Assembly (NCBI GenBank): GCA_002708105.2
Contig: PAOQ02000007.1
Span: 5,426-58,748, forward strand
DNA from: a bacterium
GTDB lineage: Bacteria; Desulfobacterota_D; UBA1144
Reading direction: 5' to 3'
Length of the DNA: 53,323 nt
Below the pieces are notes generated by a model. The model worked only from the letters and a program-made list of their open reading frames with translations. It ran no database searches and was not told the DNA's origin. Made by a program: the position numbers and the translations under genes. This document shows, one piece after another, positions 17,176 to 17,357 of this stretch. Within the stretch, counting starts at the first letter, position 1. Each line of letters begins with the position of its first letter.

Positions 17176-17206
17176 AAAAAACTCCTAAAATTTAAATGTA
17201 ACTCAA

Positions 17207-17240
17207 GAGGAAAGACATATAGGCAAGAATGTCCTTTCTC
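17207..17240 (-). promoter_or_regulatory. leader hairpin downstream of the SAM riboswitch
   Basis: On the minus strand GAGAAAGGACAT (17240-17229) can pair with ATGTCTTTCCTC (17218-17207), with 11 of 12 positions pairing including one G-U, around a 10-nt loop. No U-tract follows, so it is not a standard intrinsic terminator. It lies between the aptamer and the AGGAG of thrC, and may be part of the expression platform. Just after it GAGTTA (17204-17199) could pair with TAACTC (17278-17273) inside the aptamer loop, a possible alternative fold. Confidence 0.55.
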
Positions 17241-17290
17241 TGTTTAGCAGTTATTTTATGTCGCTGCAATTAGAGTTAAATGACGACATT
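17240..17290 (-). promoter_or_regulatory. SAM-II-type riboswitch upstream of thrC
   Basis: Read on the minus strand, the leader has the SAM-II layout. P1 ATGTCG (17289-17284) pairs with CGACAT (17263-17258). The loop carries ATTTAAC and then ATTGCAG, and the 3' side carries the conserved GCTAAA (17248-17243). GCAG (17267-17264) pairs with CTGC (17250-17247) to close the pseudoknot directly against P1. These elements and their spacing match what I recall of the SAM-II/SAM-V family (T-loop ATTTAAC, ATTGCA, GCTAAA). The expected effect is lower expression of thrC and the sulfur carrier when SAM is plentiful. Confidence 0.75.
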
Positions 17291-17345
17291 AATAATTATA
17301 GTATTAATTTATAAAAAAAACAATAAAGTCTAATTATTAAAGAGG

Positions 17346-17351
17346 TATACT
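17346..17351 (+). promoter_or_regulatory. -10 box just before the MBL-fold gene
   Basis: TATACT lies 6 nt before ATG 17358 with only A residues between. No clear -35 hexamer is seen at the right distance and no Shine-Dalgarno sequence is present. The mRNA of the MBL-metH operon probably starts at or next to the start codon. Confidence 0.4.
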
Positions 17352-17357
17352 AAAAAA

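Follow-up and report, generated by a model that had tools for sequence, protein, structure and literature searches.

The window (the whole stretch of DNA analysed, 53,323 nucleotides) holds on its minus strand a SAM-II-type leader in front of a gene resembling threonine synthase and a gene for a sulfur carrier, and the question that it raises is which step of metabolism SAM would control there. Taken as a whole, our results make it likely that a SAM-II riboswitch represses a metM-metO gene pair and that sister cassettes in the same genome add a cysteine leader.

The minus strand before 17175 reads ATGTCG TC ATTTAACTCTA ATTGCAG CGACAT ... CTGCTAAACAGAG. The full SAM-II architecture that the original prediction had described on this strand (a 6-bp P1, ATTTAAC, ATTGCAG, GCTAAA and a GCAG/CTGC pseudoknot) is present by direct reading. 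A second pseudoknot helix, CTCT/AGAG (17275-17272 with 17241-17238), which had been overlooked, completes the fold. The element had been placed at 17240-17290; it is there, but that span is slightly short, since with its expression platform the unit extends from about 17290 to 17173 (Table 1). The Infernal check proposed for it gave a match to RF00521 (SAM_alpha) at 17223-17297 with 30.8 bits and an E value of 7.6e-5 (cmscan, 1-kb search), but this is below the gathering score of 36. The long-loop SAM-II model RF01726 gave 23.3 bits at the metM leader (cmscan, E 0.08; gathering score 44). Because both scores are under the gathering cut-offs, a standard Rfam scan of the whole window at that threshold missed the aptamer. 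SAM-V (RF01826) had zero matches in this genome and zero in the control genomes as well, which makes it a weak search. The aptamer string was matched in none of 100 shuffled versions of the window, and viral contigs gave no exact match to it. The riboswitch upstream of metM-metO is a real element, because it is repeated: RF00521 has four matches in a search of the whole genome, and 30 elements were counted in the 14 genomes of the family. The metM gene and the gloB-metH pair are divergent, with about 60 bp (17298-17357) between the riboswitch and the start of gloB; metH itself has no SAM-II element.

Table 1. Features of the metM-metO locus, in positions of the window
Feature	Position	Strand	Remarks
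-10 promoter hexamer TATAAT, about 6 nt before P1	17295..17300	-	direct reading; predicted
SAM-II aptamer, span of the Rfam match	17223..17297	-	RF00521, 30.8 bits, E 7.6e-5
P1 5' strand ATGTCG	17284..17289	-	pairs with 17258-17263
Loop ATTTAAC	17281-17275	-	direct reading
P2b pseudoknot 5' strand CUCU, within loop	17272..17275	-	pairs with AGAG 17238-17241
ATTGCAG	17270-17264	-	direct reading
P2a pseudoknot 5' strand GCAG	17264..17267	-	pairs with CUGC 17247-17250
P1 3' strand CGACAT	17258..17263	-	pairs with 17284-17289
P2a pseudoknot 3' strand CUGC	17247..17250	-	continues into GCUAAA (17243-17248)
P2b 3' strand AGAG	17238..17241	-	also used by rival helix AGAG:CCUCU
Hairpin 2 of expression platform, AAGGACAU...AUGUCUUU	17211..17236	-	93.5% of cells paired
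CCUCU, rival partner of AGAG	17206..17210	-	possible anti-Shine-Dalgarno
Conserved GAGUUACA box	17197..17204	-	complementary to sequence right after the start codon
metM Shine-Dalgarno AGGAG	17182..17186	-	direct reading
metM, threonine-synthase-like PLP enzyme, 411 aa	15940..17175	-	probable O-phosphohomoserine-dependent homocysteine synthase
metO, sulfur carrier protein, ThiS/MoaD family, 92 aa	15652..15930	-	PAIAGG then VN

The four sites in this genome are located before metM, before cysI, before genes for a rhodanese and a NifU-like protein, and before a gene for an SBP56 protein of the methanethiol oxidase family. RF00521 matches were found in 11 of the 14 family genomes, and the same element was found by eye in the metM leaders of the remaining three. 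Our own covariance model (R1), built from 29 element sequences, detected 30 elements across all 14 genomes and none in 44 other genomes of the phylum (58 in total), where stricter filters applied and weak matches can be lost. Sulfur genes lie downstream of every one of the 30, namely metM (14), cysI (6, with the operon order cysI, cysD, cysN, PiT-like permease, cysH), an sseA-type rhodanese (6) and methanethiol oxidase (4). The closest named genome is Deltaproteobacteria bacterium TMED58. Two metM copies, each with SAM-II ahead of it, are present in one genome (G006:C14 and G006:C20; L024 and L026). A CysI sulfite reductase was not found in genus g2 (G001, G002, G003 and G005), where metM is still behind SAM-II, and this suggests that the genus relies on reduced sulfur.

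The AUUUAAC / UUGCA / GCUAAA core is invariant or nearly so in the 29 elements, GCUAAG replacing GCUAAA in two complete ones, and TATAAT or a near match occupies the equivalent position in most of the aligned elements. Covariation among relatives had also been proposed as a check: the helices are kept in the 29 elements (paired cells: P1 86.8%, P2a 90.5%, P2b 82.8%), but the P1 core is invariant and the changes in P2a and P2b are mainly one-sided. Four of the six P1 pairs do not vary, and the two outer pairs vary on both sides yet are often unpaired; the variable pair of P2a is seen as GC, AU and GU, and the variation in P2b is mostly from UA to UG. The strongest covariation support comes from hairpin 2 of the expression platform (17236-17211), with changes on both sides at six of eight pairs and 93.5% of cells paired in the same 29 sequences.

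Being SAM-II by architecture, the aptamer of the metM leader in all likelihood binds SAM, and SAM-dependent repression of metM-metO is very likely. When SAM is plentiful, the riboswitch would repress translation of metM-metO; intrinsic terminators were found in neither of the two leaders scanned, those of metM and sseA. The AGAG strand is predicted to alternate, either closing the SAM-binding pseudoknot or pairing with CCUCU in hairpin 2. The AGAG:CCUCU helix is an outer extension of hairpin 2 with a mean probability of 0.89 in unbound folds, and it excludes the aptamer state because both use the same AGAG. With SAM bound, AGAG would be held in the pseudoknot and the free CCUCU could, in this genome, cover the metM ribosome-binding site. 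When the aptamer was locked in the folding calculations, CCUCU paired with the metM Shine-Dalgarno sequence with a probability of 0.71 in this genome and 0.78 in G011, and with low probability in most other metM leaders; accessibility of the Shine-Dalgarno sequence went from 0.26 to 0.09 in this genome and from 0.26 to 0.06 in G011. Over the 29 leaders, its mean accessibility in equilibrium folding was not significantly lowered by locking, so that either the platform varies by locus or equilibrium folding is blind to kinetics. Masking of the metM Shine-Dalgarno sequence by CCUCU, as modelled by folding, is possible and rather doubtful. The GAGUUACA box is kept in all 29 elements with few changes, and a partner of 7-9 bp was found for it at codons 2-5 or 4-6 in 11 of 14 metM leaders. 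Pairing of the loop UAACUC with GAGUUA was rejected as an anti-sequestor; the two are complementary in 29 of 29 elements, but the mean equilibrium probability is 0.02.

The metM protein scores 224 bits with the PALP profile and 280 bits with TIGR00260. It shares 55-65% identity with proteins of Nitrospira, Scalindua, Nitrospinota and Verrucomicrobia, and 50.4% with a protein of the actinomycete Nonomuraea encoded beside a metO and a SAM-I. A sulfur carrier had been predicted as the second gene, and this is borne out by PF02597 (57 bits; closest solved chains 4n6e_B and CysO 3dwg_C) and by its adjacency, a metO homologue following metM within about 275 nt in all 81 loci of relatives, which were chosen by similarity to the query and form no census. 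The C-terminus of the carrier is GG-VN, and relatives have GG-AS, GG-VS, GG-F or no extension. Since metO continues past GG, a trimming protease would be needed ahead of thiocarboxylation.

In Streptomyces albulus, the ThrC homologue MetM is reported to make homocysteine and its carrier was named MetO (Hasebe 2024, as described in PMC12172450). The gene of the window had been called thrC. There is, however, a second ThrC-like protein in the genome, P0007, with 442 aa and 215.7 bits in TIGR00260, which is 25% identical to the window metM protein over the aligned region; ThrC-like proteins of 442-449 aa occur in nearly all family genomes (similar length in 13 of 14). Because this separate protein is present, the 411-aa protein is not, as judged from sequence comparison, the housekeeping threonine synthase. 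By every testable feature the gene pair appears to be MetM/MetO, with the exception of a homoserine kinase, which was not found. Together, the separate ThrC-like protein and the match to MetM leave the idea that SAM governs threonine synthesis at the phosphohomoserine branch unsupported; the other option raised at the outset, an enzyme that makes a sulfur amino acid, agrees with MetM, whose reported product is homocysteine.

The metM-metO pair probably makes homocysteine, and its similarity to MetM makes O-phosphohomoserine-dependent synthesis quite likely for the enzyme. In the pathway for which the pair is named, MetO is reportedly the thiocarboxylate donor and O-phosphohomoserine is said to be the substrate of MetM. 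MetM would combine O-phosphohomoserine with the sulfur carried by thiocarboxylated MetO, giving homocysteine, and MetH, encoded in the window divergently beside metM, would methylate this to methionine. Of the 14 family genomes, 12 have a ThiF-family protein. That of this genome, encoded elsewhere, consists of MoeB fused to a rhodanese domain; it is likely the enzyme that charges MetO. No proper PF01053 enzyme (MetB, MetC, MetY, MetZ) was found in any of the 14 genomes, where matches reached at most 37.8 bits and spanned about a third of the model; the sole weak match inspected, L053, is a BioF-like protein instead. The homocysteine route of PF01837 / HcyA is absent from all 14, and three controls did match. 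The GHMP homoserine kinase model TIGR00191 gave in the 14 genomes only matches below its cut-off. One weak match that was inspected is ispE (IspE) and not a homoserine kinase. Two ThrC-family enzymes are found in the family genomes though a GHMP-type homoserine kinase was not, and their homoserine kinase probably belongs to another family.

Two other products have to be weighed for the enzyme. If metM were an ordinary threonine synthase, SAM would shift phosphohomoserine between threonine and methionine. Its protein does exceed the thrC equivalog cut-off of TIGR00260 (280 versus 167 bits), and a Microcystis homologue with an adjacent carrier is reported to be mainly a threonine synthase and deaminase (PMC12172450). 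However, the genome already has a second ThrC-like protein, a sulfur carrier accompanies the enzyme in 81 of 81 loci, no other homocysteine-forming enzyme was found with PF01053 and PF01837 in the 14 genomes, and repression of threonine synthesis at high SAM would make little metabolic sense, so that this explanation is improbable. MetM/MetO might instead yield cysteine, like the mycobacterial CysM/CysO, given that CysO is among the nearest solved relatives of MetO and that genes for cysteine synthesis are found under sister elements. This is quite improbable, as the enzyme falls within the threonine synthase branch and not with CysM, most of the 14 genomes have PALP proteins of CysK length (none was found in that of the window, which is 88% complete), and the ligand of the metM leader, which has no poly-Cys leader ORF, is likely SAM rather than cysteine. 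Homocysteine remains the product that we favour.

The gene context had been described as unusual, which holds for the aptamer class but not for the control by SAM, since the latter is common before such genes. A SAM riboswitch is reported upstream of S. albulus metM (PMC12172450), and SAM-I aptamers were found ahead of metM in 14 of 38 other loci scanned, in planctomycetes including Scalindua, in Verrucomicrobia, in a mariprofundal MAG and in Nonomuraea. None was found before metM in the scanned Nitrospira loci or in the nearest relatives, L063 and L064. As SAM-I precedes metM elsewhere, the window locus seems to follow the same logic with another aptamer class, and SAM control of its metM would be ordinary end-product repression by an unusual type of aptamer. 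The unusual features are thus the SAM-II class before metM and, outside the window, a poly-Cys leader at the sister copies.

At metM loci the switch is followed by the enzyme's own start codon. Before cysI (six elements), rhodanese (six) and methanethiol oxidase (three complete ones), the switch precedes a leader ORF of 21-33 aa, for example MTKTMCDIRLCVINTCCCCLSNSCCCNYK. An in-frame Cys-Cys-Cys run near the end of the leader ORF is present in all 15 complete non-metM elements (L001, L003 and L004 in this genome and 12 in relatives), at 45, 60, 66, 69 or 81 nt from the start and with the stop soon after. All 15 ORFs are preceded by a Shine-Dalgarno sequence. Most other positions vary, synonymous TGT/TGC changes are present, and a second in-frame Cys cluster is often found upstream of the run; the mto_G000 leader has 11 Cys. 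In 115 kb of this genome, large ORFs contained no CCC in 33,470 residues and short ORFs contained it in 4 of 906, three of which are leaders. The aptamer and the leader appear to form a single cassette. Both are missing at the cysI and rhodanese (sseA) genes of genera g2, g4 and g5, and a methanethiol oxidase locus (L208; G011:C13, about 1518) with P1 and the loop intact has lost GCTAAA and keeps only CFC of its Cys run. Immediately 5' of the rhodanese and methanethiol oxidase Shine-Dalgarno sequences lies a hairpin, TCTGG...CCAGA (also TCTGAC...GTCAGA and TCTAG...CTAGA), whose pairing is maintained despite the sequence changes.

At cysI-cysDN-cysH, rhodanese-nifU and methanethiol oxidase, the switch would control the leader ORF and not the gene directly, and the genes would respond to SAM through the aptamer and to charged Cys-tRNA through the leader. 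By analogy with the poly-Cys leaders of Actinobacteria, which are likewise terminator-free, these leaders may act by attenuation via charged Cys-tRNA, and on the same analogy it is fairly probable that they sense cysteine. At the leader loci, the leader Shine-Dalgarno sequence pairs mostly with the stretch just ahead of the Cys codons, so that stalling of a ribosome at this point would act on it. In simulations, stalling or masking at the Cys codons had no consistent releasing effect on the Shine-Dalgarno sequence of the main gene. If relief depends on translation of the leader, both SAM and cysteine must be low for expression; that the sister genes are expressed only when both are low is a tentative reading, close to evenly balanced. 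With similar reserve we propose that SAM-II gates the poly-Cys leader, that the leader reads SAM and Cys-tRNA so that sulfate assimilation would open only when both are short, and that the cassette may perhaps have been copied from metM to the three further sulfur loci.

The Cys codons could also be incidental to an RNA element, in which the runs, as UUGUAACU, pair with a conserved upstream AGUUACAA. Most leaders have such pairing, and it is present in the lowest-energy fold of sseA_G000. It is nevertheless unlikely to be the explanation, as the run is in frame in 15 of 15 elements at five spacings, synonymous TGT/TGC changes occur, a second in-frame Cys cluster is often present, the stop follows shortly after the run, and Actinobacteria are known to have poly-Cys leaders ahead of cys operons (PMC1262725). 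The ORFs might otherwise encode functional Cys-rich micropeptides, as Cys clusters and a Shine-Dalgarno sequence are common to all 15, but their sequence is hardly conserved outside the Cys run and they are found only between a riboswitch and sulfur genes, which makes a function of the peptides themselves highly improbable compared with that of regulatory leaders.

These results give genomic support to the MetM/MetO route in a marine lineage without other visible homocysteine synthesis. They also indicate that at least two unrelated aptamers, of the SAM-I and SAM-II classes, have come to place metM under the control of SAM. If confirmed, the sister copies would be leaders that combine, in series on a single mRNA, a riboswitch binding a metabolite with attenuation by an amino acid, and the presence or absence of the cassette before the same genes among genera offers a natural experiment on the spread of a regulon.

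Poly-Cys leaders, SAM-II and SAM riboswitches before metM are each already known separately. In the literature searched, which covered few subscription journals, no case was found of SAM-II before metM-metO or in series with a poly-Cys leader. The element shares with the SAM-II of RF00521 and RF01726 its P1 and pseudoknot, the AUUUAAC/UUGCA/GCUAAA core and the sulfur or methionine genes downstream, and the -10 box lies just ahead of P1, as described for SAM-II in Corbino 2005 (PMC1273637). It differs from the SAM-II of Rfam in scoring just under the cut-offs, in its host lineage, which is marine and for which the closest named genome is classed as Deltaproteobacteria, in the conserved hairpin 2 with one strand competing for the pseudoknot, and in its targets (metM-metO, sulfate assimilation, rhodanese-nifU and methanethiol oxidase). 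The locus resembles the MetM/MetO pathway (Hasebe 2024, as described in PMC12172450) in having a ThrC-like enzyme beside a sulfur carrier with a SAM riboswitch ahead, and it carries SAM-II where the other metM loci (Nonomuraea, planctomycetes, Verrucomicrobia and the mariprofundal MAG) carry SAM-I. In the Sinorhizobium metA leader (PMC9373788), SAM-II also controls a Shine-Dalgarno sequence with the coding start farther downstream, but there are two AUGs in one frame with a terminator between them, and no cysteine leader. The tandem leader ORFs of Salmonella mgtCBR (PMC3641672) similarly bring two signals to one leader mRNA, one of them a charged tRNA read through repeated codons, but with two leader ORFs, no SAM riboswitch and additive signals. 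The poly-Cys attenuators of mycobacteria and other Actinobacteria (PMC1262725; Canestrari 2020 as cited in PMC13236596) are likewise short ORFs that precede cys genes and have a Cys run close to their stop, with no obvious terminator (PMC1262725; PMC13236596), and the cysS uORF of Rhodobacterales (PMC8632094) is also a short ORF with a Cys run near its stop. In contrast to the actinobacterial and Rhodobacterales Cys leaders, the leader found here is not leaderless; its start lies behind SAM-II, with the two sensors in series.
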